Assembly: GCF_001273845.1 (NCBI RefSeq)
Contig: NZ_JHBW01000087.1
Location: 496,001 to 560,000 of the forward strand
Length of the DNA: 64,000 nucleotides
Reading direction: 5' to 3'
Origin: Leucobacter musarum subsp. musarum
GTDB taxonomy: Bacteria; Actinomycetota; Actinomycetes; Actinomycetales; Microbacteriaceae
A program made the translations under genes and the position numbers. Below, piece after piece: positions 4,040-46,797 of the stretch. Below the pieces are notes generated by a model that was not told where the DNA came from, made no database searches, and saw only the letters and a list, made by a program, of their open reading frames with translations. Every line of letters starts with the position of its first letter. Position 1 is the first letter of the stretch.

Positions 4040-4129
4040 GTGTGCTTCTCTTCCCGGTTCCGTGCACTCAGCACTGTGCTGTTCAACACCGCGCGGCACG
4101 AAACTATTTCGCAAGCTCTGACGCGGCGG

Positions 4130-4184
4130 ATCGACCATGCGCGAACTCCGCGACGGGCGGTCGATGGACTAGACCCCGTCGCGG
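4130..4184 (-). promoter_or_regulatory. Attenuator-like alternative hairpins of the leuC leader
   Basis: On the minus strand a perfect 10-bp stem (4184-4175 with 4157-4148) begins inside the end of the leader peptide. A second 7-bp stem (4165-4159 with 4136-4130) uses the loop of the first and encloses its 3' arm, so the two exclude each other. There is no U-tract, so control could be at translation or through Rho. The fold was made by eye. Confidence 0.5.
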
Positions 4185-4213
4185 CTGTGAAGAAGCAGAG
4201 CCCGCGAACGCAT
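4169..4213 (-). CDS. leuL: Leucine leader peptide upstream of leuC
   Basis: This 14-codon ORF encodes MRSRALLLHSRDGV, with three consecutive Leu codons (CTG CTT CTT, 4198-4190). It ends inside the 5' arm of a strong hairpin about 130 nt before leuC. The -10-like TAGACT (4225-4220) ends 6 nt before its ATG, so the ORF would be translated from the very 5' end of the mRNA. This is the layout of amino-acid leader peptides in other actinobacteria. Stalling at the Leu codons would change the downstream folding; this role is inferred. Confidence 0.65.
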   Translation of the reverse strand: MRSRALLLHSRDGV

Positions 4214-4219
4214 GCCGAG

Positions 4220-4225
4220 AGTCTA
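4220..4225 (-). promoter_or_regulatory. Probable -10 element of the leuL-leuCD promoter
   Basis: The hexamer TAGACT ends 6 nt upstream of the leader ATG. No good -35 is seen 17-18 nt farther upstream. The same hexamer and spacing occur before the HhH-GPD gene at 33436. Confidence 0.5.
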
Positions 4226-4277
4226 CCACCGCGCGACCCGAGCACCCTGCATTCGGTGCCGAGCCGCGCGCTGGCTC

Positions 4278-5330
4278 CTAATGGCGGTTCGCGCGATCGT
4301 GGTGCTGACTGTTCGATTCGTGCGGTTCGGCCATGCCGAGGTGGAGGTGCTCACCCTGCGCGCGCGCCTCGCGGTTGGCCTTGATGACGCTCGCGATCGT
4401 CGCGATCGCCATCGCCCCGACGATGAAGCCGAGTGAAACTCCGGTCGTGATCTCGGGAACGGGAACGTGCTCGCCACCGTTAATGAACGGCAACTCATTC
4501 TCATGCAGGGCATGGAGGATCAGCTTGACGCCGATAAAAGCCAGAATCGCGGCAATGCCGTACTTGAGGTACTCGAGACGTTCGAGCAACCCGCCCAGCA
4601 AGAAGTAAAGCTGACGCAGGCCCATGAGCGCGAACACGTTCGCGGTGAACACGATGAATGGGCTCTGCGTGATACCGAAGATCGCCGGAATCGAGTCGAG
4701 GGCGAAGAGCAGATCAGTGAATCCCAGGGAGATCAGCACGAGGAGGAAGGGAGTGAACATCCGCTTGCCATCGACGGTGGTGCGCAACTTGCCACCGTCG
4801 TAGTGATCGCTGAACGGCATGACCTTCTTGATCTGGCGAATGATCCAGCTGTCGCCCTCATCGTCGTGACCGCCGGGCTTGATCTGCTGCCAGGCCGTCC
4901 AGATCAGCCACGCACCGAACACGAAGAAGATCGCGATGAATCGTTCGATGACTGCGGCACCGACCAGAATGAACGCTCCGCGGAAGAGCAGTGCGAGCAC
5001 GATACCGATCATGAGCGCGCGCTGCTGGTAAGCACTGGGCACCTTGAAGCTCGCGAGGATCAGCACGAACACGAAGAGATTATCGATGGAGAGGCTGTAC
5101 TCCGTCAGCCAGCCTGCCAAGAATTCGGTGCCGTGCTGCACGTCGCCGAGCAGGAAGATCGCTCCGGCGAAGACGAGCGCGAGCAGCACGTAGAACCCGA
5201 CCCACAGGCTTGCCTCCCGCATCGACGGAACGTGGGGACGACGAATGATCAGGGCGAGATCGACGACGAGGATCACGACGAGCGCGACCATCGAACCGAT
5301 TTCGAACCAGAGCGGCAGAACTGAGGTCAC
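4278..5330 (-). CDS. TerC-family integral membrane protein, probable Mn2+ exporter
   Basis: This multi-spanning protein of about 350 residues belongs to the TerC/Alx/YkoY family, members of which export Mn2+. It has at least eight hydrophobic segments and the family motifs EYSLSIDNLFVFVL and LLFALDSIPAIFGIT, whose acidic residues sit in the membrane. A hydrophilic loop (PGGHDDEGDS) lies mid-protein and a His-rich tail at the end. I chose GTG 5330 because AAAGAAG lies 9 nt upstream and the in-frame sequence before it belongs to the riboswitch. The riboswitch supports manganese as the relevant ion. Confidence 0.85.
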   Translation of the reverse strand: MTSVLPLWFEIGSMVALVVILVVDLALIIRRPHVPSMREASLWVGFYVLLALVFAGAIFLLGDVQHGTEFLAGWLTEYSLSIDNLFVFVLILASFKVPSAYQQRALMIGIVLALLFRGAFILVGAAVIERFIAIFFVFGAWLIWTAWQQIKPGGHDDEGDSWIIRQIKKVMPFSDHYDGGKLRTTVDGKRMFTPFLLVLISLGFTDLLFALDSIPAIFGITQSPFIVFTANVFALMGLRQLYFLLGGLLERLEYLKYGIAAILAFIGVKLILHALHENELPFINGGEHVPVPEITTGVSLGFIVGAMAIATIASVIKANREARAQGEHLHLGMAEPHESNSQHHDRANRH

Positions 5331-5373
5331 CGGAGTGCACTTCTTTCGGCAGGGCGCGGCAGGCGCGCAAATG

Positions 5374-5488
5374 ACCGAAAGTCTCTCCCCGGTGCTCGAC
5401 ATGACGCCTGCAGCACCGCGCCCGCACCGGCGCCGCTACGGAGCGGCACGTATTGACGACACGGGCGAACCGGGATACTCCCCTTCGC
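5374..5488 (-). promoter_or_regulatory. yybP-ykoY family Mn2+ riboswitch
   Basis: The minus strand holds the two conserved blocks of this family: GGGGAGTA (5483-5476) and GGGGAGAGAC (5390-5381). They are closed by a P1 helix CGAAGG (5487-5482) with CUUUCG (5381-5376). It sits directly before a terC-family gene, the classic target, with its 3' edge about 45 nt from the GTG. Mn2+ binding would switch on terC expression. Motif recognition is by eye. Confidence 0.85.
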
Positions 5489-5495
5489 TCGCAAC

Positions 5496-5501
5496 AGTGT
5501 A
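5496..5501 (-). promoter_or_regulatory. Possible -10 box for the riboswitch transcript
   Basis: TACACT on the minus strand lies 8 nt upstream of the riboswitch P1 helix, a suitable place for the -10 of its promoter. No convincing -35 is visible. Confidence 0.35.
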
Positions 5502-5594
5502 CTCGCACAGGCGGGTCGCGTCGCACGTCGTTCACGAACGCTCAATCGCGCTGCGCTAGCATCATGCCATCCACATCCGCAGAGAGGGCCCCAC

Positions 5595-6377
5595 GTGAGT
5601 CAGCGACCCAACACCATCGAACGCAGCACCGAAGCCGGCCCCGGGGCCGCCTCTCGCACGCTCGCAGGATTCATCTTCGCGAGCCGCTGGCTGCAGGCGC
5701 CGTTGTATCTCGGCCTCATCGTCGCGCAGGCGGTATACGTCGTGCTCTTCTTCGTCGAGCTCTGGCACCTGGTCGAGAACGTCGTCGCGACCGGGCACAT
5801 CACGGAGACCGACGTGATGCTCAGCGTGCTCGCGCTCATCGACATCGTCATGATCGCGAACCTGCTCATCATGGTGATCATCGGCGGGTACGAGACCTTC
5901 GTGTCGAAGATTCGCGTCGAGGGGCACCACGACGAGCCCGAGTGGCTGTCGCACGTGAACACGAACCTGCTGAAGGTCAAGCTTGCGGTGTCCATCATCT
6001 CGATCTCGTCGATCCACCTGCTCAAGACCTTCATCGAGGTGGGGCGCATGGATGGCGGCGTGGTGCTGAATTCGAACGGCACTGTGCTGTACTCGTCGGA
6101 GGGCGTGATGTGGGAGGTCGCCATTCACCTTGCCTTCATCGTCTCCGCGATCGCGCTCGCCTGGATCGATCGGATGAGCCAGCACCACGTGCCGGCGGCC
6201 CCGAGCGGGCTGAGCGCCGGAGCCATCGAAGCAGGACTGCGCGGAGACGCACCTGCAGCTGCGCCGACGCCAGCGACGGTGACTGCGGCGCCCGCAGCCG
6301 ACGGCTTCGTCACCGTGCGACTGCCGGCAGGCGCACAACTGCCCGAGGGCGCCGAAGTGGTCTCGCACGACCGCTAA
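5595..6377 (+). CDS. YqhA family (UPF0114) membrane protein
   Basis: This is a 260-residue inner-membrane protein of unknown function. The first 180 residues match the YqhA/TIGR00645 family, with FIFASRWLQAPLYLGLIVAQ near residue 25, IANLLIMVIIGGYETFVSKI near 90 and KLAVSIISISSIHLLKTFI near 130, giving four likely membrane helices. The last 80 residues are an Ala/Pro-rich hydrophilic extension that the short enterobacterial proteins lack. The start is GTG 5595, with a purine-rich GAGAGGG upstream. It is divergent from terC. Confidence 0.8.
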   Translation: MSQRPNTIERSTEAGPGAASRTLAGFIFASRWLQAPLYLGLIVAQAVYVVLFFVELWHLVENVVATGHITETDVMLSVLALIDIVMIANLLIMVIIGGYETFVSKIRVEGHHDEPEWLSHVNTNLLKVKLAVSIISISSIHLLKTFIEVGRMDGGVVLNSNGTVLYSSEGVMWEVAIHLAFIVSAIALAWIDRMSQHHVPAAPSGLSAGAIEAGLRGDAPAAAPTPATVTAAPAADGFVTVRLPAGAQLPEGAEVVSHDR

Positions 6378-6407
6378 GGTGGTATTCGGCCGGGATTCCC
6401 GGCCCAC

Positions 6408-6489
<82 letters not shown>

Positions 6490-6498
6490 CGTGGCGTA

Positions 6499-7962
6499 TC
6501 AGCGCACCGACTCGGCCCCGGCAGATGTCCACATCGCCGAGATATCGGTGAGCGGCACCGTCGCGGGTCCCGCGCCGTGCACTTCTCGGAACGCTCGCGA
6601 GAACGCGGGCAGGTGCGCGTAGCCCAGATCACGGGAGATGCGCGATGCTGCCTGCCCTTCGTTGAGGCGGTTGCGTGCGCGGGTCATGCGCGCCGCACGA
6701 AGCCAGGTCGCGCTCGACTCCCCCGCGCGCTCGCGAACGAGCCGTCTGAGATCGCGCTCGCTGTCGTCGAGCAGCGCTGCGATGTCGGCAAAACTCCATT
6801 CGGGCCGCAGCGACACGGCGCTCGCAAGGGCTGCGAGCCGGTGGTCATCCGTGTCGGTGGGCGCAAGAGAGCCCTCGCGGAGCACCGAAGCGAATCCCGC
6901 CTCCACGCGCTCGGCTCCGGGTCCGGTCGCACTCGGCCGGGCATACGCATCGATCATCCACGCGATCGCCTCGATATCGAGCCGTGGAGCCACCTGCACG
7001 GGGGCAAGCGGCACCCCCACGGCACCCGCCCGGCCCGATCGATAGCCGATGGGCAGCATGAGCGACCCGGCCGGCACCGTGACTCGGTTGCGCAATCCTG
7101 CAGGGAGCACCACAGCGTCTCCCTCGCGCAGGCGCATCGGCCGCCCACCAATGGTCACGTCGACGACGCCGAGGGCTGCCCACACGGCGACGTGCGCGCC
7201 GTTCACCCGCTCCCAGGTGCGGGTCTCCGCCAGTGCGACCGTGGGAACGATCTGCGCCCGGGCGAGCTTGGCACCCGTCGCGGTACGTCGCCACTCGCCG
7301 GGCGGTGATCCGGCAATCTCACGAAATGCCCGCACGAACCCGGGCACGCTGCGAAAGCCGACTCGGTGCGCTGTCCATTCGAGATCACGGCCGCTCCGCA
7401 GGAGTTCGGCGGCAGCATGAATGCGGGAGCGACGCACCCAGGCGGTGAGCGACAGACCGGTTTCGGCGCGGAACCTCCGCTGCACGGAGCGCATGCTCCA
7501 GCCGGTAACCGCGGCATCAAGCGCGGCAGCGAGGTCGAGGTCGGGATTATCGGCCAGCGTGTCGGCGAGGTCGTGGAGTTCGGCCGAGACCGGCGCCGGA
7601 GGAGGCTCGAGCAGCGCAGACTCCTCAATACGCACGGAAACGCCGCGCGCCGAGCCGTCATCGAGATGCCCGAGCCCCCTCGAGAAGGCCTCGAGCAGCA
7701 CCGGCAGGTGTTCGATCGCGCCGGAAATCCGCGCAATGACCGCGGGCCCCGATGCGTGTCCGGGAACCGGGAGCACGATGCCGGTTACTGACGCTCGGGC
7801 CGCATCTACGATCGACCCCGCCGGCACCCAGAGCGCTTCACCCTCCGCAATACTGCAGGCGACGTCACCCACGGTGACCCTGCATGCACCGCGCACTGCG
7901 ACGTACAGCAACGGTTCGGCGAGGCGCCCGGTGGGTCCTGGTAACACGGTGTCGTTCTCCAT
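6499..7962 (-). CDS. Tandem-duplicated AraC-type regulator (two cupin, two HTH units)
   Basis: The 487 residues hold two successive AraC-like halves. Unit 1 has a cupin-like sensor at about 15-90 and a DNA-binding domain at about 145-225 (SVQRRFRAETGLSLTAWVRR, then FRSVPGFVRAFREIAG). Unit 2 repeats the plan with a cupin at about 245-315 and an HTH at about 385-470 (RRLVRERAGESSATWLRAAR, then YAHLPAFSRAFREVHG). ATG 7962 is preferred to the in-frame TTG 7974; neither has a good ribosome site. It is divergent from the siderophore operon across an iron box and most likely regulates it, as AraC-type siderophore-sensing activators do elsewhere. The ligand is unknown. Confidence 0.8.
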   Translation of the reverse strand: MENDTVLPGPTGRLAEPLLYVAVRGACRVTVGDVACSIAEGEALWVPAGSIVDAARASVTGIVLPVPGHASGPAVIARISGAIEHLPVLLEAFSRGLGHLDDGSARGVSVRIEESALLEPPPAPVSAELHDLADTLADNPDLDLAAALDAAVTGWSMRSVQRRFRAETGLSLTAWVRRSRIHAAAELLRSGRDLEWTAHRVGFRSVPGFVRAFREIAGSPPGEWRRTATGAKLARAQIVPTVALAETRTWERVNGAHVAVWAALGVVDVTIGGRPMRLREGDAVVLPAGLRNRVTVPAGSLMLPIGYRSGRAGAVGVPLAPVQVAPRLDIEAIAWMIDAYARPSATGPGAERVEAGFASVLREGSLAPTDTDDHRLAALASAVSLRPEWSFADIAALLDDSERDLRRLVRERAGESSATWLRAARMTRARNRLNEGQAASRISRDLGYAHLPAFSRAFREVHGAGPATVPLTDISAMWTSAGAESVR

Positions 7963-7975
7963 CAACAGATGCAAG

Positions 7976-7994
7976 TTAGGCTCTACTAACTTAG
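7976..7994. promoter_or_regulatory. DtxR/IdeR-like iron box
   Basis: TTAGGCTCTACTAACTTAG matches the 19-bp IdeR/DtxR consensus (TTAGGTTAGSCTAACCTAA) at about 13 of 19 positions, mostly the outer half-sites. It lies between the divergent double-AraC gene and the siderophore-uptake operon, over the likely promoter region. Iron-replete repression by a DtxR-type protein is inferred. Confidence 0.6.
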
Positions 7995-8048
7995 GTTACC
8001 GCGCGGCGATTCGACCGCGCTGAACTCGATTCCACGGAGGTGCGCCGC

Positions 8049-9047
8049 ATGGCGAAACCCCTTGCCCCGATCATTCTGGCCGCCGCGCTGACCGCGCTCC
8101 TCGCCGGTTGCAGCACGAGCAGCGCAGCGACTGATGCCGACGCCACCCAGGCCTCCGACTCCTCGGGCGACTGGCCGCGCACGATCACCCACGAATCCGG
8201 CGAGACCGAGATCGACGCGGCACCGCTGCGCATCGTCTCCACATCCCCCTCCATCACCGGCAGCCTGCTCGCCATCGATGCACCGCTCGTCGCCTCCGGC
8301 GCGACCACGGTCTCCCCATTGACCGACGACCAGGGGTTCTTCACCCAGTGGGCCGAGGTGGCCGAAGACCGCGGCGTCGAGATCGCGTACACCGATCTCA
8401 CCCTCGACGTCGATGCCGTCGATGCGTTCGAACCCGACCTGATCATCGGCTCCGCGAATGGCGGCGACGCCACCGCCGACGCCTACGATCAGCTTTCCGA
8501 GATCGCCCCGACCGTCATGCTCGATTACAGCAGCATCACGTGGCAGGAACTCACGACCGAGCTGGGAGAGATCACCGGGCTCGAAGACGCGGCGGCGGAT
8601 CGCATCGCCGAGTACGATGATTGGGTCGCCGACCAGGCCACCCGCATTGCGCTCCCGGAGCAGCCGACCACCGCCCTGGTCTACATGGGCGTCGACGGCT
8701 CGTGGGCCTTCACGGCCGACAGCCCGCAGGCAGAACTGCTCACGTCGCTCGGATTCACCTACGCACCGGTCGCCGAGAAGTACCAGACCGACGACGCGCA
8801 GGGACGCGGCGTCGACGTGCTCACCTCCGAGAACACGTCGGCCGGTCTTGCAGATGCCGAAACCGTGCTCGCTGTCGCCATGGGTGGCGGGGATCCTGCC
8901 GCAGACTTCTCCGGCGATCCGTTGCTCGCTAATCAGCCGGCCGTACAGAACGACCGCGTCTTCTCCATGGGTGCACAGGCGTTCCGCCTCGATTACTACA
9001 GCGCGAAACTGACCGTCGAGCTGTTGGTCGACACCTTCAGCAACTGA
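8049..9047 (+). CDS. Iron-siderophore ABC transporter substrate-binding lipoprotein
   Basis: This should bind a ferric siderophore outside the membrane and pass it to the permeases downstream. It has a signal peptide with lipobox LLAGC (Cys about residue 22), then a FepB/FhuD-type periplasmic-binding fold of about 300 residues with IVSTSPSITGSLLAIDAPLV and FEPDLIIGS. ATG 8049 is chosen because GGAGG lies 8 nt upstream; the GTG at 8040 overlaps that Shine-Dalgarno. It is the first gene of a five-gene operon preceded by an iron box. The specific siderophore cannot be told from sequence. Confidence 0.9.
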   Translation: MAKPLAPIILAAALTALLAGCSTSSAATDADATQASDSSGDWPRTITHESGETEIDAAPLRIVSTSPSITGSLLAIDAPLVASGATTVSPLTDDQGFFTQWAEVAEDRGVEIAYTDLTLDVDAVDAFEPDLIIGSANGGDATADAYDQLSEIAPTVMLDYSSITWQELTTELGEITGLEDAAADRIAEYDDWVADQATRIALPEQPTTALVYMGVDGSWAFTADSPQAELLTSLGFTYAPVAEKYQTDDAQGRGVDVLTSENTSAGLADAETVLAVAMGGGDPAADFSGDPLLANQPAVQNDRVFSMGAQAFRLDYYSAKLTVELLVDTFSN

Positions 9048-35221: not shown

Positions 35222-36718
35222 CTAGCCGCGCGCGAGGTGCTTCGGGCGCTCGAGGAACAGCACCGCGACGACGCCGACGAGCATCACGATCGCGGGGAGC
35301 AGCAGCGTCTGCGACATCGCGTCGGAGAATCCGGGCACGATCTGTGCGGGCAGCTGCCCGCCACCGATGCCGCCCGACGCGTCAGCGTCCCCGGGCAGGT
35401 TCGCTTCGAGTCGCGCCTGGATGAACGCGGCGATCGCCGCCGAGCCGATCGCCGATCCGATGGTGCGGGTCGTGTTGTAGATGCCGGCTCCGGCTCCTGC
35501 CTGGCGCGGGTCGAGGTTGCGCGTCGCCGTGGTGGCGAGCGGGCCCCACATGCCCGAGTTGCCGACACCGATGAGCAACGACGGCAGCAGGTAGACCCAG
35601 ATCGGGGTGTCGGCGTTCATGAGCGCCGAGTACCAGAACAGCGCGCCCGAAACGAGCAGCAGACCGGGGACGAGCAAGAAGCGAGCGTCGACGCGATCGA
35701 GCAACCGACCGACGAGCGGCGAGAGCACGCCCGCAGCAACCGCCGTCGGCACCATGAGCAGTGCCGACTGCGTGGGGGTGAGACCCCGCGCGAGCTGGAT
35801 GAAGAACATCATCGGCAGCGTCATGCTGGTGACGACGAAGCCGACGACGGAGATACCGATGTTTGCGATCGAGAAGTTGCGGTCGGTAAAGAGTCGCAGC
35901 GGCACCAGGGGCTCGCTCCGCGTCTTCGCCTGCTGCCAGATGAAGAGCCCCATGACGATGACGCCCGCTGCGATCGTGCCCCAGATCCATGCGGCCCAGT
36001 CGTACTTCTCGCCCTCTTGGAGGCCGAACACGATGAGGAACAGCGAGACGGCCGAGAGGAGGACGCCGAACAGATCGAACTTGTGCTCGTGGGTGTCGAG
36101 TTGCGGCACGAGGATCGCGGCGAGTACGAAGCCGATGATGCCGACGGGCAGGTTGACGAAGAAGATCCACTCCCAGCCGAGGCCGTCGACGAGCAGTCCG
36201 CCGGCGAGCGGGCCGACGAGCAGCGCGACGCCAGAGGTGGCACCCCACAGACCCATGGCCGCGCCGCGCTGAGCGGGCGGGAAGGTGCGGGTAATCACGG
36301 CCATGGTCTGCGGCGTCATGAGCGACGCGCCGATGCCCTGCACCGCACGGAAGAAGATGAGCCACTCGAGCGAGCCCGAGAGCCCGCACCCGAGTGAGGC
36401 GAGGGTGAAGATGACGAGGCCAACAAGGTAGACGTTCTTCGGCCCGAAGCGGTCGCCTAGGCGGCCGGTGATCAAGAGGGGAACGGCGTACGCCAGCAGG
36501 TAGGCGCTGGTCACCCATACGACGTTGTCGAGGTTGTTGGTGTTGGGGTCGAGTGCCGCTTTGATCGCGGGATTCGCGACCGAGACGATCGTCGTATCGA
36601 CGAGGATCATGAAGAAGCCAATGATCATCGCCCAGAGCGCGGGCCAGGGGCTGCGCGGTGCGGTGTGCGACGCGCCGGTCGCCGCCGCAGGGGTCGCTGC
36701 GCTGGAGGTGTCGGTCAT
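35222..36718 (-). CDS. DHA2-family MFS drug exporter (EmrB/QacA type)
   Basis: This 498-residue proton antiporter has about 14 membrane helices. Helix 1 carries MIIGFFMILVDTTIVSVANP (the DHA2 D-T-T-I-V motif), motif A is GRLGDRFGPKN, and motif C is in VALLVGPLAGGLLVDGLGW. It probably exports toxic organic compounds. Its ATG overlaps the PadR stop as ATGA, so the regulator and pump form one transcript, a common arrangement in which PadR represses its own operon. Confidence 0.9.
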   Translation of the reverse strand: MTDTSSAATPAAATGASHTAPRSPWPALWAMIIGFFMILVDTTIVSVANPAIKAALDPNTNNLDNVVWVTSAYLLAYAVPLLITGRLGDRFGPKNVYLVGLVIFTLASLGCGLSGSLEWLIFFRAVQGIGASLMTPQTMAVITRTFPPAQRGAAMGLWGATSGVALLVGPLAGGLLVDGLGWEWIFFVNLPVGIIGFVLAAILVPQLDTHEHKFDLFGVLLSAVSLFLIVFGLQEGEKYDWAAWIWGTIAAGVIVMGLFIWQQAKTRSEPLVPLRLFTDRNFSIANIGISVVGFVVTSMTLPMMFFIQLARGLTPTQSALLMVPTAVAAGVLSPLVGRLLDRVDARFLLVPGLLLVSGALFWYSALMNADTPIWVYLLPSLLIGVGNSGMWGPLATTATRNLDPRQAGAGAGIYNTTRTIGSAIGSAAIAAFIQARLEANLPGDADASGGIGGGQLPAQIVPGFSDAMSQTLLLPAIVMLVGVVAVLFLERPKHLARG

Positions 36719-37329
36719 TGCCGTGCTGCCTTTCGGAGTTGCAAGTAGTGCTCAGTGTGTGGTGAGGCGCCAGGGCCCCAAGGGAATGCGGGATCAGCCA
36801 GACGCTGCAACAGCGTCTGCAACCACTGCAGGTCGGCGTGTCTCATCGCGGCCGTTCGCTCGATTTCGATCACGTATTGCATCGGCGCGTGCGCTGCCGT
36901 CGCCGCGTCGAGCGCCTGCTCGGCGTGCTTCAGGCTTTCGGCAAGTGCGGACCGTCGTTGGGTGAGCAGCATCAGGGCGTCTTCGCGCGTGAGGTTGTGC
37001 GCCTCGGCGAGAGCCACTCTGAAGTCGGTCGCGCGATCCACCCGCGGCAGCTGCTCACGCACCCAGGTCACCAGTGCTGCGTCGCCGCGGTCGGTCAGCG
37101 CGTAGGTCGTGCGCTCGGGCCGGTTGCCGTCGCGGTCTACCCCGATCTCTTCGAGAAGCCCGTGCTCGAGCAGTCGCGCCACCGTGTGGTAGAGCGTGCC
37201 ATTCGTGACTTTCAACAGCCGATCGCGCTCGCGGGCGCGCAGCAATCGCATCATCTCGTACGGATGCATGTCACCCTCGCGCAGCAGCGCGAGGAGCATC
37301 ACGCCGAGCGGCGTCAGCTTCGGATTCAT
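36715..37329 (-). CDS. PadR-family transcriptional regulator
   Basis: This 204-residue repressor has an N-terminal winged helix: LTPLGVMLLALLREGDMHPY, then KVTNGTLYHTVARLLEHGLL and the wing RPERTTYALTDRG. A C-terminal helical dimerisation region follows. Three ATG codons in a row (37335, 37332, 37329) follow GGGGG; the third gives normal spacing. The region upstream contains TCCA-TG-TGGA (37347-37356), a possible operator. It most likely controls the coupled exporter. Confidence 0.88.
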   Translation of the reverse strand: MNPKLTPLGVMLLALLREGDMHPYEMMRLLRARERDRLLKVTNGTLYHTVARLLEHGLLEEIGVDRDGNRPERTTYALTDRGDAALVTWVREQLPRVDRATDFRVALAEAHNLTREDALMLLTQRRSALAESLKHAEQALDAATAAHAPMQYVIEIERTAAMRHADLQWLQTLLQRLADPAFPWGPGASPHTEHYLQLRKAARQ

Positions 37330-37346
37330 CATCATCCCCCAATTAG

Positions 37347-37356
37347 TCCACATGGA
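37347..37356. promoter_or_regulatory. Candidate PadR operator
   Basis: A short inverted repeat TCCACATGGA, next to an AT-rich TATATT on the minus strand, lies between the divergent PadR and MFS genes. The position suits autoregulation. The repeat is short and the call is tentative. Confidence 0.3.
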
Positions 37357-37388
37357 ATATACCACTCCGAACAGCGAACCTCGACCAG

Positions 37389-37394
37389 TAGGAT
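37389..37394 (+). promoter_or_regulatory. Probable -10 box of a leaderless MFS gene
   Basis: TAGGAT ends 6 nt before the GTG start at 37401. Confidence 0.45.
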
Positions 37395-37400
37395 CCTGAG

Positions 37401-38621
37401 GTGCCCGTTCCCCAACGCCAGAAACTCCCCTTCGAGGTCTGGGCTTTGGTTGCCGGTGGGTTTACCGTGGCGCTCGGCTACGGCGTGGTGGCGCCCGCGA
37501 TCCCTCAATTCGCGCTCGAATTCGACGTGTCGAGCTTCGCCGCATCCGCCATCGTGAGTGCATTCGCACTGATGCGACTCGTGTCGGCACCGCTCGCGGG
37601 CTGGGTCGTCGGCAGACTCGGCGAGCGCAGCACCTACATCATCGGCATTCTGGTCGTCGCCGGCTCAACAGGTGCCGCCGCACTCGCCGTCAGCTACCCG
37701 CAGTTTCTCGTGCTCCGTGGCATCGGCGGCATCGGCTCCGCCATGTTCACCGTCGCGGCGACCGCACTGCTCATCAAGGTCAGCCCGCCTCACGCCCGCG
37801 GGCGCGTGGCGAGTGTGAACGCCGCCGGCTTCCTGCTCGGCGGGCTCCTGGGACCGGTACTCGGTGGGGCGGTCGCCGTATTCGGTCTCCGCGCACCGTT
37901 TGTCTGCTACTTCTTCACCCTGATCGCAGCGGCGACAGTCGTCGCGATCGCACTCCGTCGCTCTGCGACTGCCGGCCGCACCCCGCGCGGCTCCCACGAC
38001 GAACGCGCGGAGCTCACGCTGGGTGCGGCGCTTCGCATTCCGCAGTATCGAACGCTGCTCTGGTCGGTGTTCACCTTCGGATGGTCGTCGTTCGGCGTGC
38101 GCGTCTCGGTCATCCCGATCCTCGTCGCCGTCACCTTCCACGGAGACGCAACCATGGCGGCTTGGGTGCTCGCCGCCTACGCTGCCGGAAACGCGCTCCT
38201 GATCTTCCCCTCCGGGAAATGGAACGACACGGTCGGCCGCAAACCGCTGCTGGTCAGCGGAAGCGTCATCCTGACCGCCGCCTACGCCGCGTTTCCCGCC
38301 GCGCCCGTGCTGTGGGCTGCCATCGTCATCATGTTCGTCGCCGGCGCCGGGTCGGCTCTCGTGAATCCCGGACAGCAAGCGGTGCTCGCCGATGTGCTCG
38401 CAGGCCGACGAGGCGGCGCCGTCGTTGCCGGCTACTCGATGATGAGCGATCTGGGCGGCGTACTCGGCCCGCTGATCGCGGGCGCCATCGTCGACATCGC
38501 CGGTTTCGGCTGGGCGTTCGGCGTCACCGCTGCACTCATCGCCGTCGCGGCGATCGCATGGTCGCTGGCGCCGGCCTCACGACCACTGCTCGATGACACG
38601 GGGACGCCGGGACGAGCCTGA
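37401..38621 (+). CDS. MFS transporter, 12 helices
   Basis: This 406-residue carrier has about 12 membrane helices and the sugar/drug-type motif A in GWVVGRLGERSTYIIG. VAPAIPQFALEFDVSSFAAS in the first loop and GKWNDTVGRKPLLV in the central loop resemble DHA1-type multidrug or sugar-efflux carriers. The substrate is unknown. It starts with GTG 37401 directly after a -10 box. It is divergent from PadR and could share its control. Confidence 0.85.
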   Translation: MPVPQRQKLPFEVWALVAGGFTVALGYGVVAPAIPQFALEFDVSSFAASAIVSAFALMRLVSAPLAGWVVGRLGERSTYIIGILVVAGSTGAAALAVSYPQFLVLRGIGGIGSAMFTVAATALLIKVSPPHARGRVASVNAAGFLLGGLLGPVLGGAVAVFGLRAPFVCYFFTLIAAATVVAIALRRSATAGRTPRGSHDERAELTLGAALRIPQYRTLLWSVFTFGWSSFGVRVSVIPILVAVTFHGDATMAAWVLAAYAAGNALLIFPSGKWNDTVGRKPLLVSGSVILTAAYAAFPAAPVLWAAIVIMFVAGAGSALVNPGQQAVLADVLAGRRGGAVVAGYSMMSDLGGVLGPLIAGAIVDIAGFGWAFGVTAALIAVAAIAWSLAPASRPLLDDTGTPGRA

Positions 38622-39987: not shown

Positions 39988-40057
39988 TCCCACTCCCCTG
40001 CGCCCACTACAGTTAAACCTGGATTGGGCAATGCGTGCCCACAGCATTGGGGGATGC

Positions 40058-42226
40058 ATGAGTGACAGCAGTACCGCCGCAACTCTCGCGGATGGATCGA
40101 CACCACGACGGAAACGGCAGTTCGGCGGGCTGAGTATTCAGTCGAAGCTGCTCATCATGCTGCTGGGCGTGAGCCTGATTTCATCGATTGTCGTTGGTGC
40201 GATCGGATTCGTGAATGGCCGGCAGTCGCTGCAGGATTCCGCGATCGATCAGGTCACGACGATCCGGTCGATGCGCGCTACGGAGATCGAGACCGCGATC
40301 CAGACGATCCGACTCGATGCGTCCCTGCAGTCGCGCAACTTGAGCGCACAGACGCTTTCGCGAGAGATGAACACTGCTTTCGACGAGTTGCAGGATCGCC
40401 CTGCCCTCACCGAGGCCCAGGATGCGCAACTCAGCGACTACTATCGCGACACGTTCATTCCCGAGCTCGAGAAGCGCGCCGATCACGCCTACGGCGACGA
40501 GGCGTTCATTCCCGATTCCACTGCGGGCAAGTATCTGCAGATGCAGTACACGATCAAGAACGAAACGCTCGATGACGCGGGTTACGATGCTCAGCTGCGC
40601 GCGAACGACTCGGGCGACGGTTCGAGCTACTCGGCCGCTGCCGACCGCTACGGCGACTATCTCACCCGACTCATCGATCAGGCCGGGTACGAGGACGCGC
40701 TCCTCCTCAACCTCGACGGCGACGTCGTGTATTCGGCCTTCAAGGGCGTCGAACTCGGCACCAACCTCAACTCGGGCCCGTATCGCGACACTTCATTCGC
40801 AGAGAAGTACCGCGCGGCCATCGCGACGAACTCAGTCGATACCGTGATGATGACCGACTTCGAGCGCTGGATTCCCTCACTGAACGTGCCCGCAGTCTGG
40901 GTCATCTCACCGGTCGGCAACGATACGGGTATCACGGGGGCGCTCGCCTACCAGGTCTCCATCGATCGCATCAATAACGTCATGACCGGCAACGAGCAGT
41001 GGAAGCAGCAGGGCCTCGGAGATACCGGCGAGGTCTACCTGGTCGGTCGCGACAACCTCATGCGCAGCAACTCGCGCCTGCTCATCGAGGATCCCGAGAA
41101 CTACGCTCAACTGGCCGTCGACGGGGGCAACTCCCCCGCGGTTGCCGAGCGCATCATCGACGTGGGCGGCACCACCATGCTGCAGGAGATCAACACCCCC
41201 GCGATCGAGGCGGCGAAGGCCGGCGAGAGCGGCGCCCTCGTCGGCCGCGACTACGTGGGCAAGGAGAGCATCTCGGCGTACGCACCGCTCGACATCGAAG
41301 ACGTCGACTGGATGATCGTCGCGCGCATCAACACGTCTGAAGCGTTCGCCCCAGTCGCCGCGTTCACCCGCAACGTGCTGCTCTCGCTGCTCGGCATCCT
41401 CGTCGCGGTGTCGCTTCTTTCGCTCGTGCTCGCGCAGGTATTCACCCGCCCGATCCGCCGCCTGGTCGATGCAACGCACCACATCGCCGAAGGCGACCTC
41501 GACGTGCGCGTACCCGATGCGTCCCGCGACGAGTTCGGCGGCCTCGGCAGCGCATTCAACGACATGGCGTCGAGCCTGCGCTTGAAGCAGGATCTGATCG
41601 ACGAGCAGCGCGTCGAGAACGAGAAGCTGCTGCACACCCTGATGCCCGAGAGCGTCGCCGCCCGTTACAAGCAGGGCGACGAAGCCATCAGCGAGGCGCA
41701 CGAGAACGTCTCGGTGGCGTTCGCGGAACTTGTCGGCTTCGACGAGTACGCTCGCGGCCTGACGCCCGAGGAGGAGATCAGCCAGCTCAACACGCTGATG
41801 CGCGCGTTCGATGAAGCGGCCGAGAAGGCCGGCGTCGAGAAGGTGCGCACGCTGCGCGGCGGCTACCTCGTCTCATCAGGTCTCGTCGTGCCGCGTGTCG
41901 ACAACGTGCGCCGCAGCGTGGAGTTCGCGAAGTCACTCTTGACGGTCGTGGAGCGCTTCAATGCGCAAAACCGTTCCTCGATCTCGGTGCGCGCCGGCGT
42001 CGACACCGGCACCGTGACGAGCGGCCTCGTCGCTCGCACAACCCTCGCCTACGACCTGTGGGGCGATGCCGTGAGCCTGGCCTACCGAGTGCGCTCGGTC
42101 ACGGGCGACCCCGGCGTGTACGTGAGCCAGACCGTGTACAACCGCACGCAGGAGATCTTCGAGTACGTCGAGGCCGGCACCGTCGAGTCGCGCGGCGAGC
42201 ACGAGACGGTCTGGAAGGTCGCCTGA
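40058..42226 (+). CDS. Membrane sensor with HAMP and degenerate class III cyclase-homology domain
   Basis: The 722 residues comprise TM1 (about 30-55), an extracytoplasmic dCache-like sensor (about 55-435), TM2 (about 439-461), HAMP (about 460-515), a coiled stretch and a class III nucleotide-cyclase homology domain (about 548-720). In that domain the first metal Asp is Glu (VSVAFAELVGF). The second is lost, as TIGDA is replaced by TLRGG near 600, and the transition-state Asn is Ser (LWGDAVSLAYRVRS, Arg kept). Cyclase activity is therefore doubtful. ATG 40058 follows TTGGGGGATGC. The stop is 1 nt from the MscS-cNBD gene. Confidence 0.8.
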   Translation: MSDSSTAATLADGSTPRRKRQFGGLSIQSKLLIMLLGVSLISSIVVGAIGFVNGRQSLQDSAIDQVTTIRSMRATEIETAIQTIRLDASLQSRNLSAQTLSREMNTAFDELQDRPALTEAQDAQLSDYYRDTFIPELEKRADHAYGDEAFIPDSTAGKYLQMQYTIKNETLDDAGYDAQLRANDSGDGSSYSAAADRYGDYLTRLIDQAGYEDALLLNLDGDVVYSAFKGVELGTNLNSGPYRDTSFAEKYRAAIATNSVDTVMMTDFERWIPSLNVPAVWVISPVGNDTGITGALAYQVSIDRINNVMTGNEQWKQQGLGDTGEVYLVGRDNLMRSNSRLLIEDPENYAQLAVDGGNSPAVAERIIDVGGTTMLQEINTPAIEAAKAGESGALVGRDYVGKESISAYAPLDIEDVDWMIVARINTSEAFAPVAAFTRNVLLSLLGILVAVSLLSLVLAQVFTRPIRRLVDATHHIAEGDLDVRVPDASRDEFGGLGSAFNDMASSLRLKQDLIDEQRVENEKLLHTLMPESVAARYKQGDEAISEAHENVSVAFAELVGFDEYARGLTPEEEISQLNTLMRAFDEAAEKAGVEKVRTLRGGYLVSSGLVVPRVDNVRRSVEFAKSLLTVVERFNAQNRSSISVRAGVDTGTVTSGLVARTTLAYDLWGDAVSLAYRVRSVTGDPGVYVSQTVYNRTQEIFEYVEAGTVESRGEHETVWKVA

Positions 42227-42227
42227 T

Positions 42228-43652
42228 ATGGCTGATCTCTTCGCTCAGGCCTGGACGTGGTGGATCATCGTTCTCGCCGTAGGTGTGCCCGTGGTACTTG
42301 TCGGACTCACGGAGCTCATCTCGTTCCTCACGCGTCGACGTCACCCGCTTGCGGGGCCGGTGCGGTTCTTTCGCAACTGGGTCATCCCGTCGGGTGCGCT
42401 CTTCGCCCTGCTCGCATTCGCGATCACCTCCCCCGCCGAACTCGTGTGGGTGCGCGTCGCTGCGACGGTCTTCGGCTTCCTGCTGATCCTCCTCGTGCTG
42501 TCGTCGTTCAACGCGGCGCTCTTCGCGAACGCGAAGCCCGGATCCTGGCGCGAACGTATTCCGTCGATCTTCATCGAGATCGCACGTCTGGTGCTGGTCG
42601 TCGTCGGCCTCGCAATTCTGTTCTCGTGGGTGTGGGAGGCCGACGTTGGCGGCCTGTTCGCCGCACTGGGCGTCACGTCGATCGTCATCGGCCTCGCGCT
42701 ACAGAACGCGGTTGGTGGTGTGATCTCGGGCCTGCTGCTGCTCTTCGAGCAGCCGTTCAAGATCGGCGACTGGCTCGACACCGGCAGCGTGCGCGGTCGG
42801 GTCGTCGAGGTCAACTGGCGTGCGGTGCACATCGAAACCGGATCCGGCATTCAAATCGTGCCGAACTCTACCCTCTCAGGTGCGTCGTTCACGAACCTCA
42901 GCGAACCCGCCGGCCCCTACTTCGCGACGTCCGCAGTGAAGTTCACGACGGATGATCCGCCTCACGAGGTCATGGCGCTCCTGGTCGAAGTGGCGAATGC
43001 GCTGCCCCTGAAACGCCGCAGCGAGAGCGCAACGGTCGAATACTCGGGCAACGCGGCGTTCGAGGTCTCGATTCCAGTCGATGGCCCCTCGGATGCGCAG
43101 CGAGCTCAGACGCTGTACCTGTCATGGCTCTGGTACGCAGCGCGCCGGCGTGGTTTCGCGCTCGACGGCGACTCCACGGATCCGATCGCCGAGCCCGAAC
43201 GCCTGGACGCTGCAATTGAGTTCGTTGCACCGACGCTGCATCTTCGCGAAGATGGTCGCGAACTCGTGCGGAAGACCGCGCGACTTGAACGCTACGGTGT
43301 GGGCGAGGTCGTTCTGCCGACCGGCGCGGTCCCCAATGCGGTGCAGGTGGTCGTGTCTGGCCGCGCATCGGTGGCGCTCGAGTCAGACGGCGGGCGCCTG
43401 GAGTTCACCTCTGCTGGGCCGGGAGACCTCGTCGGACTGACGGCATTGACGCGTGAGCCGTCTCACGCAGTTGTGGTCGCTGGTGAAATTCTGACGGTAC
43501 TGTCGCTGCCCATCGACACGATCGACGCACTCATCGCGTCACGACCGCGGCTGGCGGCCGAGATCGGCGAATCACTCGATCTCAAGCGCAAGCTGGCCGC
43601 CGAAGCCGCGCAACAGATCGGCATCAATCGCGGCATCATTCGACGCACGTAA
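42228..43652 (+). CDS. MscS-family channel with C-terminal cyclic-nucleotide-binding-like domain
   Basis: The 474 residues begin with about four membrane helices. The pore helix and beta domain are VTSIVIGLALQNAVGGVISG and FEQPFKIGDWLDTGSVRGRV (about 140-210). A cupin-like cNMP-binding fold occupies about 345-450 (RLERYGVGEVVLPTGAVPNA, VVSGRASVALESDGGRLEF). The layout is that of bCNG channels. The phosphate cassette is altered: GDLVGLTALTREPSHAVVV replaces the Glu and Arg that normally hold the ribose and phosphate. The ATG is 1 nt after the cyclase-like gene, so the two proteins probably work together. Confidence 0.85.
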   Translation: MADLFAQAWTWWIIVLAVGVPVVLVGLTELISFLTRRRHPLAGPVRFFRNWVIPSGALFALLAFAITSPAELVWVRVAATVFGFLLILLVLSSFNAALFANAKPGSWRERIPSIFIEIARLVLVVVGLAILFSWVWEADVGGLFAALGVTSIVIGLALQNAVGGVISGLLLLFEQPFKIGDWLDTGSVRGRVVEVNWRAVHIETGSGIQIVPNSTLSGASFTNLSEPAGPYFATSAVKFTTDDPPHEVMALLVEVANALPLKRRSESATVEYSGNAAFEVSIPVDGPSDAQRAQTLYLSWLWYAARRRGFALDGDSTDPIAEPERLDAAIEFVAPTLHLREDGRELVRKTARLERYGVGEVVLPTGAVPNAVQVVVSGRASVALESDGGRLEFTSAGPGDLVGLTALTREPSHAVVVAGEILTVLSLPIDTIDALIASRPRLAAEIGESLDLKRKLAAEAAQQIGINRGIIRRT

Positions 43653-43784: not shown

Positions 43785-43857
43785 GTGGCTATAGCTCAGT
43801 CGGTAGAGCACCGGCTTGTGGTGCCGGTGGTCGCGGGTTCAAGTCCCGTTAGCCACC
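43785..43857 (+). tRNA. tRNA-His (anticodon GUG)
   Basis: The acceptor is GTGGCTA/TAGCCAC with an extra G at 43784 opposite discriminator C, the identity mark of tRNA-His. The anticodon loop TTGTGGT reads GUG and the T-loop is GTTCAAG. CCA is encoded at 43858-43860. Confidence 0.95.
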
Positions 43858-43868
43858 CCAAGAAATAC

Positions 43869-43980: not shown

Positions 43981-44928
43981 TCAGCGCGCGGCCGAGCGAC
44001 GAGCGATATCGTCGTGCGTGTAACTCGCCAGCGGATTGCGGCCTGCCTTCTGACGCAGTGCTGCGCTCAGCAGGTGCCGCAGGTGCGACCACTTCCCCGC
44101 GCGCACGACCCGCGTGCGCAAATCGTACGTGTCCGTATACGCAACGCGAGGCGCCCAGATGGGTTTGCGTCGACGATTGCCGAGTTTCGACGTGAGATGC
44201 AGGAACACCTGGGTGCTCGCCAGCGCTGACGCCACGTCGACGCCGATCGAGATCGAGGGCAAAGACGCCGGAGCGTGCGCGTCGTCACCCTGCACCGTCG
44301 CGAGCGATCGCAGGTCGGTATATGCCGGAATATAGGGCAGGCATCGGGCGAAGTCGACACCGAGCTCGGCGATTTCGTCGAGCGGCGCCCGGTCGCTGAA
44401 GCCCCGGTAGCGTTCGAAGGTCCACGCGGAATGCGGATCGAACGAGGTGACCTGGGCCGCGAACCCGATGTTCATCGCAAGCACATCCGGGATACCGATT
44501 CGGCGGGCTTCGCGAGCGACGAGGGTTCCGATGTCGGGCATCGTCATCTCGGTCTCGTCGAGCACGACCGAGGCACCGTGCATGAATTCCTGCACGTTAT
44601 GGGCGTTGACGCCGTCGGTGAAGAGGTCGACCGCCGCATCAGGATTGATGTCGTGCAGCCGCTCACGAAACACCTCGGCCTTACTTCGCATGAACGTGGA
44701 GTGCACCGCGCCGTCAACACGGTTCACGTTCTCGGGCTCGAAGACTTCAGGGTCGGCGATACTGAAGCTGCTCACGCCCATGCGCGCGAGCTTCAGCCCG
44801 AGCTGAAAGCCGACGCCGCCCACGCCAGCGATCGCGACGCGGGATCTCGTCAGAGCCAGCTGCTCGTCTTCACTCCAGAACCCGTAATTACGCGCGAACT
44901 CGAGTTCGTGCGCAGCTCGATTCGTCAC
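43981..44928 (-). CDS. ThiF-family (E1-like) adenylyltransferase
   Basis: This 315-residue protein has a ThiF/MoeB/MccB Rossmann core. It shows the ATP loop VAIAGVGGVGFQLGLKLARM (about 31-50), ribose Asp in SIADPEVFEPENVNR with the Arg finger, Lys in FMRSKAEVF, and Asp in SVVLDETEM. All residues needed for adenylation are present. There is no CXXC zinc pair and no clear thioester Cys loop, so it may only activate a carboxylate, as MccB does. About 110 C-terminal residues are unique. It is coupled by ATGA to the acyltransferase gene upstream. Its substrate is unknown. Confidence 0.8.
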   Translation of the reverse strand: MTNRAAHELEFARNYGFWSEDEQLALTRSRVAIAGVGGVGFQLGLKLARMGVSSFSIADPEVFEPENVNRVDGAVHSTFMRSKAEVFRERLHDINPDAAVDLFTDGVNAHNVQEFMHGASVVLDETEMTMPDIGTLVAREARRIGIPDVLAMNIGFAAQVTSFDPHSAWTFERYRGFSDRAPLDEIAELGVDFARCLPYIPAYTDLRSLATVQGDDAHAPASLPSISIGVDVASALASTQVFLHLTSKLGNRRRKPIWAPRVAYTDTYDLRTRVVRAGKWSHLRHLLSAALRQKAGRNPLASYTHDDIARRSAAR

Positions 44929-45695
44929 AGCGCCGGCTCCGTGAGTACACGCTTCGGAGCACGCCCCACGAACAGCATGCCGGGTTCAGCCGCCCGATAC
45001 TGATCGATGAAGTCTCCACCTCGCGCATTGACGCGTTCAGCCGATGCCGGAATGTCGATCTCGATGGGCAGGTTGTAGTCAAGGTAGTGCTCCACGTAGC
45101 GAGGCTCACCGATGCGCGAAATCGCAATGGAACCGTGGAGATGCCGCTCAAGCCAAGGCTCGATGATGGCGAAGGTCCGCTCAAGACCGTGATTGGCGAC
45201 GTAGGCCAGCATGACGGCGAAGAGGTGCCACTGCGCCATCTCTTGCATCACGGCCTTTTCGTGCCGCGCAATCACTCGGGAGACCTCGACGCTCACGGTG
45301 TTCAGGTCGCCAGGGCTGAACGAATCAGGGCAGAAGTCTTCGACTGGCAGCGGGTGATCCTCACCGCGAATGATGAGTCTCGACACGCCGATCACACGCA
45401 CTCCGTCAGCGTGATTCTCGAACACGGCAAACGTGGCAGATCGCGCATCATCGGCATCTCGGTCGGTACCGTCCTCTTGGAGCTCGCTCGCATCAAGTTG
45501 TCCGGTCTGATCGACGTACACCCTGCGGCGCAGATCGAAGTGCGCGAGGTACTCTCGCTCGAACCCGGGAAGCGGCACGTCATGCACGGCGATGAGGCCG
45601 ACGGCCAGGCGCGATGCCGGGTTGTCAGCGAAGACGTCAGAATCGACGACGGGAATGACGTCGTGATTCGTGACAGAACGGTCGATATGAGACAA
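44925..45695 (-). CDS. LuxI/FeeM-like N-acyltransferase (GNAT fold)
   Basis: The 256 residues follow the pattern of autoinducer synthases and N-acyl amino acid synthases. They show FDLRRRVYVDQTGQLDASEL (Arg then Asp), an acidic loop, VRVIGVSRLIIRGEDHPLPV with the Arg-Leu, and VSVEVSRVIARHEKAVM with the Glu-X-X-Arg. These enzymes take acyl chains from ACP or CoA and place them on an amine. The start is TTG 45695 with AGGAGG 9 nt upstream. The stop overlaps the ThiF-family gene. The product is not predictable; an acylated amino acid or signal is the natural guess. Confidence 0.65.
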   Translation of the reverse strand: MSHIDRSVTNHDVIPVVDSDVFADNPASRLAVGLIAVHDVPLPGFEREYLAHFDLRRRVYVDQTGQLDASELQEDGTDRDADDARSATFAVFENHADGVRVIGVSRLIIRGEDHPLPVEDFCPDSFSPGDLNTVSVEVSRVIARHEKAVMQEMAQWHLFAVMLAYVANHGLERTFAIIEPWLERHLHGSIAISRIGEPRYVEHYLDYNLPIEIDIPASAERVNARGGDFIDQYRAAEPGMLFVGRAPKRVLTEPAL

Positions 45696-45884
45696 CGCCG
45701 GGGCCCTCCTGAGGCTACATAGCTGTGACGGCCATGGAAATCATGAATCCCCGGGCGATGACCGCGAACGACTCCTGTGTACTCTCATTTTGCACCAATT
45801 GCGATATCCAATGCACGGAATGCAATGTCCGGCGAGTCGCGATACGAGATACGGCGAACTCATGGCATAACGCGCGCGCCTGAA

Positions 45885-45911
45885 TTGACAGAAACACGCG
45901 AGTGATAGCAT
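45885..45911 (+). promoter_or_regulatory. Promoter of the TetR-type gene
   Basis: A consensus TTGACA (45885-45890) is followed after 15 nt by TAGCAT (45906-45911). The short spacer makes it a weak or activated promoter. The divergent intergenic region 45696-45945 is noticeably more AT-rich than its surroundings and contains TGCA-N5-TGCA at 45812-45824. Confidence 0.45.
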
Positions 45912-45945
45912 GTGGCAACTACGGTCGTCGACGATGGGGGGAACG

Positions 45946-46797
45946 GTGCAGGGAGAGAATTGGAACCGGGCGAGCAGTGTGCGCTCCCGCCCAGGCTTCG
46001 ATGACGCGCGTTCGAGAATGCTCTCTGCTGCGGTGCAGCACGTCGAGTCGGTCGGCCTGACCCTCGGTGTTACCGCTGGTTTGATCGAACAGATCGCGAG
46101 CAACGCCGGCGTCAGTATCAAGCAGTTCGCGCAGGCCTGGCCGACGCACGAGGCGTTCCTCGCCGATCTCTTCACCGAACTCGCGAATCAAGCGCAGATC
46201 GACCGAGCCGACACCGAGACGCTGCTTACGACGTGGCAGTACCTCAGCATGCGGGTCGGCGACCTGCGGTCGGTCGAAGGCCGACGCAGCGTACTCATCG
46301 ACATCATCCGCACCGCTGCGGAGTACAACTTCGATGTCATCACCGCCTCCAGCAAGTGGCGCACCTACGCCGCCCTCTCGACGACCATCACGGCGTGGCC
46401 AGATGGCGAAGCCCGTACGCGCGTGCTCGATGCGCTGCGCGCGAGCGAAATGTCGTTCGTCGAAACCATGGAGAATTTCTACCGCAATGTGCTGCCAACC
46501 GTGGGTTATCGACTCAAACCGATGTTCCACAACGACTACCAGCCGTTTGTCGTCGCCGCAGCTTCGGTCATCGAGGGCCTCGGCATCGTGCGTGCGACGG
46601 TTCCGTCGCTCGTACAGGCCCACTTCACTCGCGAGACCGAGACCGAAGCCGAATCGTGGTCGGTTTCCGCGCTCTCCTTCATGGGAGTCGTCGACGCATT
46701 CATCGAGCGCGACCCTGAGTTCGATGCCGATGAGGCGATTTCACGCCTGAGTTCCGGCGTCGACGTCACCCCGCCTTCAGAGAACAACTCCTACTGA
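45946..46797 (+). CDS. TetR-type transcriptional regulator
   Basis: This protein of about 283 residues has an N-terminal TetR-like HTH (ARSRMLSAAVQHVESVGLTL, then IEQIASNAGVSIKQFAQAWP and THEAFLADLF) and a long helical ligand domain. The HTH is divergent from the Pfam core and the protein is longer than the usual 200 residues. GTG 45946 has GGGGGG just upstream; ATG 45934 is an alternative, and ATG 45910 lies inside the promoter. It is divergent from the acyltransferase/ThiF operon and probably regulates it. Confidence 0.7.
   Translation: MQGENWNRASSVRSRPGFDDARSRMLSAAVQHVESVGLTLGVTAGLIEQIASNAGVSIKQFAQAWPTHEAFLADLFTELANQAQIDRADTETLLTTWQYLSMRVGDLRSVEGRRSVLIDIIRTAAEYNFDVITASSKWRTYAALSTTITAWPDGEARTRVLDALRASEMSFVETMENFYRNVLPTVGYRLKPMFHNDYQPFVVAAASVIEGLGIVRATVPSLVQAHFTRETETEAESWSVSALSFMGVVDAFIERDPEFDADEAISRLSSGVDVTPPSENNSY

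Follow-up and report, generated by a model that had tools for sequence, protein, structure and literature searches.

What would an actinomycete make with a LuxI-like acyltransferase whose gene overlaps that of a ThiF-like activating enzyme (E1)? The question is raised by a locus of Leucobacter musarum subsp. musarum (genome G000, 3.44 Mb; G and L numbers are our labels for genomes and loci) that lies in a 64,000 nt stretch of contig NZ_JHBW01000087.1 (positions 496,001 to 560,000), hereafter the window. An earlier note, made from the sequence, had placed here an E1 gene, an acyltransferase (AT) gene and a divergent TetR-type gene, and we located all three open reading frames (ORFs) where it had put them. 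We consider it probable that AT and E1 are an N-acyl amino acid synthase (NAS) and an ATP-dependent cyclase resembling those of the Oxz, Tyz and Trz oxazolone pathways, without the flavin oxidase of those pathways. The note's own proposal, a small acylated, adenylate-derived molecule, came close to this judging from the available text of the papers on the published pairs (PMC10404671, PMC12856293), but it did not foresee the oxazolone chemistry, the missing oxidase, a block that includes a GGDEF-EAL gene, or two genomes in which the E1 is absent.

Structure prediction gave the 256-residue AT the LuxI/FeeM fold that the note had expected: the model had a predicted local distance difference test (pLDDT) score of 91, and its best structural matches were acyl-homoserine lactone (AHL) synthases and FeeM. 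The Arg/Asp...Arg-Leu...Glu-X-X-Arg pattern read earlier in this protein also holds, with R56, D80, D83, R106-L107 and E137-x-x-R140 unchanged in all 20 aligned orthologues. Profile searches, which had been suggested as a check, left the window protein itself below the gathering scores of FeeM (PF21926; 22.8 bits against 27) and Autoind_synth (PF00765; 17 bits against 24), but its relatives pass them: the AT of L020 (66% identical) exceeds that of PF21926 at 29.1, and those of L117 (38.2) and L102 (34.1) exceed that of PF00765. Gln66, which is Gln in 20/20 orthologues, aligns with a Trp of BjaI that has a role in S-adenosylmethionine binding.

The E1 matched PF00899 (ThiF) above the cut-off (1.7e-27), and its best NCBIfam match was PRK08223 (1.4e-51, under that family's cut-off), a family without a named function. 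It contains the GxGGxG, Asp, Asn, Arg and Lys core of the ThiF/E1 superfamily, and G35, G37, G38, G40, D59, N67, N69, R70 and K83 were unchanged in the 18 E1s of the genus; the earlier statement that every residue needed for carboxylate adenylation is present stands for this core but not for one acidic position discussed below. Zinc-binding CxxC pairs and a thioester Cys occur in only some ThiF/E1 members. The window protein has no CxxC pair, and its lone Cys (C196) is retained in 17 of the 18 genus E1s, yet in just two of nine diverse E1s, in line with the note's view that a zinc pair and a clear thioester Cys are lacking. A thioester- or zinc-type E1 is not supported by this single Cys, whose position is variable in diverse relatives. 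Among solved structures (PDB), the E1 profile matched TcdA best (6e-24), nearly tied with an unnamed ThiF-type protein (9egb, 7.5e-24) and followed by ThiF, with MoeB, PaaA and MccB lower. TcdA, the tRNA threonylcarbamoyladenosine dehydratase, adenylates a carboxylate and then carries out a cyclisation; it differs from the window E1 in its tRNA substrate and belongs to another sequence family.

As described in the available text of two papers (PMC10404671, PMC12856293), aromatic amino acids are N-acylated from acyl-CoA by TrzA and by TyzA, the latter likened to FeeM and BjaI, TyzB and the ThiF domain of TrzS drive the cyclisation of the N-acyl amino acid to an oxazolone with ATP, and a flavin oxidase, fused or adjacent in each of the Oxz, Tyz and Trz pathways, then desaturates the oxazolone. 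Oxazolone rings are opened by acid and by alcohols (PMC12856293). The window is like these pathways in that the acyltransferase gene adjoins a ThiF-like cyclase gene, with a cyclic di-GMP (c-di-GMP) gene nearby just as c-di-GMP genes adjoin trzAS (PMC12856293, available text); it is unlike them in its divergent TetR-like gene, the lack of a detected flavin oxidase, a Glu for Asp replacement, and an E1 apart from TrzS-like rows of our tree. As the window pair corresponds to the first two parts of such a pathway and the oxidase was not found, we liken it to the oxazolone pathways and do not assign it to them. The N-acyl dehydrotyrosine clusters (stieleriacine, thalassotalic and kyonggic acids) likewise have an NAS gene near a ThiF-family gene, the two lying at most 10 bp apart or overlapping in two producers; unlike the window they carry a nitroreductase gene, accompanied in Stieleria by methyltransferases (PMC12479983, available text). 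The LuxI-type AHL synthases BjaI, RpaI and LasI share with the window AT the fold and the Arg/Asp/Arg/Glu-x-x-Arg core, and differ from it in the sub-cut-off Pfam scores of the latter, its Gln at the BjaI Trp, its coupled E1 and the absence of a LuxR-type gene among the four genes of the block.

AT was found in 21 of 100 genomes searched (G000 included), all of its own genus, and an E1 adjoined it in 19 of the 21. These comprise 17 loci with the window-type E1, G028, where E1 and AT lie at opposite ends of one contig and are adjacent if that contig is circular, and G042, where the neighbouring E1 is merely 31% identical to that of the window. In the family Microbacteriaceae AT matched in 17 of 299 genomes, 14 of them from other genera, and in those 14 AT and E1 were always adjacent, accompanied by a TetR-like gene in 13 and by a GGDEF-EAL gene in six. 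The adjacency survey that the note had proposed therefore came out in favour of the pair, which exceeds chance because it is conserved side by side. The gene overlap noted earlier is real and recurs as 1 or 4 bases in 18/18 contiguous genus pairs, but its letters in the window are GTGA and not ATGA. Records of Leucobacter celer and L. chromiisoli hold the same four genes. A phylum search with the AT profile (396 genomes, at most six candidates scored in each) matched the genome of origin alone; this null does not mean absence, since E1-led searches later showed distant ATs. No AT match was obtained in plasmids, and phages gave eight partial E1 matches, none covering more than 53% of the query, of which the annotated ones were MoeB/ThiF-like.

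The distant relatives were drawn from genome scans only. From a scan of genomes with four E1s, the best 80 of 330 loci were kept and the AT profile was refined on these same loci; AT lay within 1.3 kb of E1 in 19 of the 80, from many phyla, and in L098 (a Saccharimonadia metagenome-assembled genome) the AT and ThiF domains are fused in a single frame. A tree of 106 E1 rows placed the window type among 14 rows that form a supported clade (100/97), each of them AT-linked, with Saccharibacteria, Acetobacterium and others represented and one member fused to AT; seven of the rows had been added for being AT-linked (one identical to a scan row) and seven came from the scan. Outside this clade fell L094 and L096 (AT-linked), L114 and L115 (with a flavin oxidase) and three TrzS-like rows. 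Across 37 AT-E1 loci, L114 and L115 were the only two with a flavin oxidase nearby. The AT profile found no match on the three TrzS-like loci even at an E value of 10, and their TrzA is either located elsewhere or too distant for this profile; two of the three also have GGDEF matches.

Several other arrangements were seen in the scan. L102 (Acetobacterium dehalogenans, 3181-8905) has two AT-E1 pairs around a gene for DegV, a family that binds fatty acids, and a further AT that spans two frames, and in L147 (Bradyrhizobium) an alpha/beta hydrolase gene lies ahead of E1. Tandem E1 genes with no AT found nearby occur at 13 of the 80 loci (L112, L121, L124, L126, L127, L128, L129, L131, L137, L138, L140, L169 and L173), in Thermoactinomycetes, Bacillus, Oscillatoria and others, and are perhaps another system. 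A tight group of E1s from Streptomycetaceae and Amycolatopsis (L141, L144, L148, L154 and L163), also with no AT nearby, has the AT-linked E1s from Pseudomonas, Bradyrhizobium and others as its sister group.

In the reading that we favour, AT would acylate an amino acid at its amino group, taking the chain from acyl-CoA or from acyl carrier protein (acyl-ACP). E1, translated through its stop/start coupling with AT, would then adenylate the free carboxylate of the N-acyl amino acid for attack by the amide oxygen, which would close a five-membered oxazolone (azlactone) ring or yield some comparable product, cyclic or transferred. Because the block contains no flavin oxidase, the ring would stay saturated, and it would probably be short-lived. 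Control of the AT-E1 operon would fall to the divergent TetR-like protein, which may detect the product or its precursor. We infer both reactions from characterised relatives; the ligand of the regulator and a c-di-GMP output are guesses.

Several observations weigh against an oxazolone-type pair. Glu127 of the window E1 stands at the acidic position (placed by eye) that is Asp in MoeB, ThiF and TrzS, being Glu in 17 of the 18 genus E1s and Asp in a variant E1, and changing that Asp to Ala in TrzS abolished its products (PMC12856293, available text). The window E1 falls apart from the three TrzS-like rows, which sit on a long branch, in a tree that does not include TyzB and OxzB. At 61 of the best 80 of 330 E1 loci there was no AT in the stretch covered. 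No TrzS-type flavin oxidase was found in G000 with queries that were positive in the controls G421 and G655 and that could miss a distant oxidase; in 26 Microbacteriaceae genomes (G039 left out) only G011 (26% identity, 1.9e-9) and, marginally, G168 (9.2e-4) matched the query, and PF00881 in G000 yielded two frames of 205-220 amino acids (aa) on other contigs. Finally, G013 and G029 keep AT and the TetR-like gene with no adjoining E1 and none of the window type genome-wide (the sole match in G029 is partial and probably MoeB-like), and AT alone may thus have a use.

Each of the 21 genus genomes with AT has the TetR-like gene next to it, divergent in 20 (AT being inverted in G029), and the TetR-like gene tracks AT more strictly than E1 does. 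The divergent TetR-type gene of the earlier note was upheld in its position and in the lower GC content of the 214 nt spacer (56% against 66% for the window), but the window ORF had no Pfam match and its listed start is probably wrong. The GTG at 45946 is the more likely start, because a -10-like TAGCAT (45906-45911) ahead of the regulator overlaps the ATG at 45910. The L040 orthologue likewise lacked a PF00440 (TetR_N) match, a related protein in L060 matched TetR_N at 2.4e-6, and the model of the regulator (pLDDT 53.8) resembled TetR proteins but with no Foldseek match reaching 0.001; on the resemblances of this low-confidence model and the L060 relative, we call the protein TetR-like. A box, ATTnTGC, was found in the spacer of 19 of 20 genus loci (window copy CATTTTGCACCAA, 45786-45798) and in L039 from one other genus, and was not found in a further 12 of 12 loci (L040-L051); inspection of the spacer by eye revealed no conserved palindromic operator. 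In G029 (L021:1501-3484), with AT inverted and E1 gone, the box still lies upstream of AT.

The GGDEF-EAL gene follows AT closely within the genus. Among 54 same-genus genomes, a close orthologue (at least 58% identity) was present in 21/21 of those with AT and in two of the other 33 (G017 and G001), and none was found in the remaining 31, five of which are less than 90% complete; in G026 and G042 the gene is split in two, the second piece matching at lower identity. The TetR-like gene has the same presence pattern, except for a weak partial match in G002. The contig of G001 ends within the TetR-like gene, so this locus is uninformative on AT. In G017 the TetR-like and GGDEF-EAL genes are as in the window, and the slot of the enzyme pair is filled by a different acyltransferase (29.8 bits against PF21926, above the cut-off) overlapping a variant E1; G042 combines the window-type AT with this variant E1 type. 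On a weakly resolved tree of one gene (GatB) from 57 genomes, 26 of them AT-labelled (G017 included, G001 excluded) and with four other-genus rows, the AT label required 11 changes, against a mean of 19.1 when shuffled and with 0/500 shuffles as low. The label is clustered but patchy across this tree, and physical linkage may be the cause of the co-inheritance of AT, TetR-like and GGDEF-EAL genes.

These patterns bear on what the product would be for. A true autoinducer system, in which AT by itself would be the source of the signal (AHL-like or an N-acyl amino acid), with E1 only modifying it, the TetR-like protein as receptor and the GGDEF-EAL enzyme as output, is a possibility to which we give limited weight. 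It would suit the constancy of the TetR-like gene next to AT, even in the two genomes without E1, the exchange of both AT and E1 types in G017 with regulator and GGDEF-EAL retained, the matching presence of GGDEF-EAL and AT in the genus save for G017 and G001, and the patchy label with its 11 changes. AT-E1 pairs elsewhere also lie near signalling genes, namely a histidine kinase (L117), a response regulator with a weak, sub-threshold kinase match (L052) and GGDEF-HD genes (L094-L096), and the available text of PMC12856293 puts c-di-GMP genes beside trzAS. However, linkage alone could explain the co-inheritance, eight of the 14 other-genus loci have no GGDEF-EAL gene, and Gln66 replaces the Trp of BjaI. 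Slightly more doubtful is the fuller scheme of a quorum-sensing-like module of Gram-positive Actinomycetota, in which the signal from AT and E1 would be a cyclic N-acyl amino acid read by a TetR-type receptor, with a co-inherited GGDEF-EAL enzyme giving the c-di-GMP output; synthase alleles would be swapped while receptor and output are kept, and in other lineages the AT-E1 core would be connected with histidine kinases or with different c-di-GMP enzymes.

It is unlikely, in our estimation, that the product is instead an antibiotic, surfactant or membrane lipid under an ordinary TetR repressor. Antimicrobial activity is attributed to N-acyl tyrosine derivatives from Stieleria (PMC12856293, available text), L162 (Pseudomonas) has a major facilitator superfamily (MFS) transporter gene separating E1 from AT, and the window itself has two MFS genes at a distance of about 6-9 kb from the pair, but the interval from its tRNA-His gene to its zincin gene showed neither a transporter nor a tailoring enzyme. 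Very improbable is a ubiquitin-like or RiPP-like (ribosomally synthesised and post-translationally modified peptide) scheme, with E1 activating a small protein or peptide tail and AT acting on it. The E1 fold and the distant MccB and PaaA matches would allow it, but the overlap leaves no room for a gene between AT and E1 (no search covered short peptide genes elsewhere), no Cys is conserved among diverse E1 relatives, and the AT-E1 fusion suits a shared small substrate better.

Features of the AT-E1 block (window positions)
Feature	Position	Strand	Basis or remark
ThiF-like E1, 315 aa, GTG start	43981..44928	-	PF00899; predicted ATP-dependent cyclase of N-acyl amino acid
GTGA stop/start overlap, AT with E1	44925..44928	-	E1 GTG at 44928, AT stop 44925-44927
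LuxI/FeeM-fold acyltransferase (AT), 256 aa, TTG start	44925..45695	-	Fold model, motifs
Divergent promoter region, 214 nt	45696..45909		ATTnTGC box and -10-like TAGCAT
TetR-like regulator	45946..46797	+	Listed ORF from ATG 45910; conserved start probably GTG 45946
GGDEF-EAL c-di-GMP enzyme, 775 aa	46834..49161	-	PF00990 7.2e-37, PF00563 2.5e-52

The GGDEF-EAL gene lies downstream of the TetR-like gene and convergent with it. A tRNA-His gene (43785-43860) adjoins E1 and is also found in or next to the block in L012, L021 and L056, which may mean that the block inserted beside a tRNA. Further out, the two MFS genes flank a PadR-type regulator (35222-38621), and at 40031-43652 an adenylate cyclase gene (Cache and HAMP domains) immediately precedes that of an MscS-type channel with a cyclic-nucleotide-binding domain, likely a pair of cyclase and cyclic-nucleotide-gated channel.

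Enzyme pairs of this kind have already been described, in papers from 2021 (as cited) to 2025. We found no description of a Leucobacter AT-E1 system in the literature: the available main text of surveys of LuxI in Gram-positives and Actinomycetota (PMC5539150, PMC13136126) contains neither Leucobacter, Microbacteri nor ThiF, and the available text of PMC12856293 mentions neither Leucobacter nor Microbacteri. As far as our searches show, what is new is the clade without an oxidase and how widely it is spread, together with the regulator, the swapping of alleles and the c-di-GMP companion. The physiological role of oxazolones has been termed a major unresolved question (PMC12856293, available text). 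Set in another actinobacterial genus and without a detected oxidase, but with its own regulator, a c-di-GMP companion and natural variants in which E1 is missing, E1 is swapped or both enzymes are swapped, this locus offers one place to ask whether the product is sensed and controls c-di-GMP, and LuxI-fold chemistry would extend to Leucobacter, Saccharibacteria and Acetobacterium.

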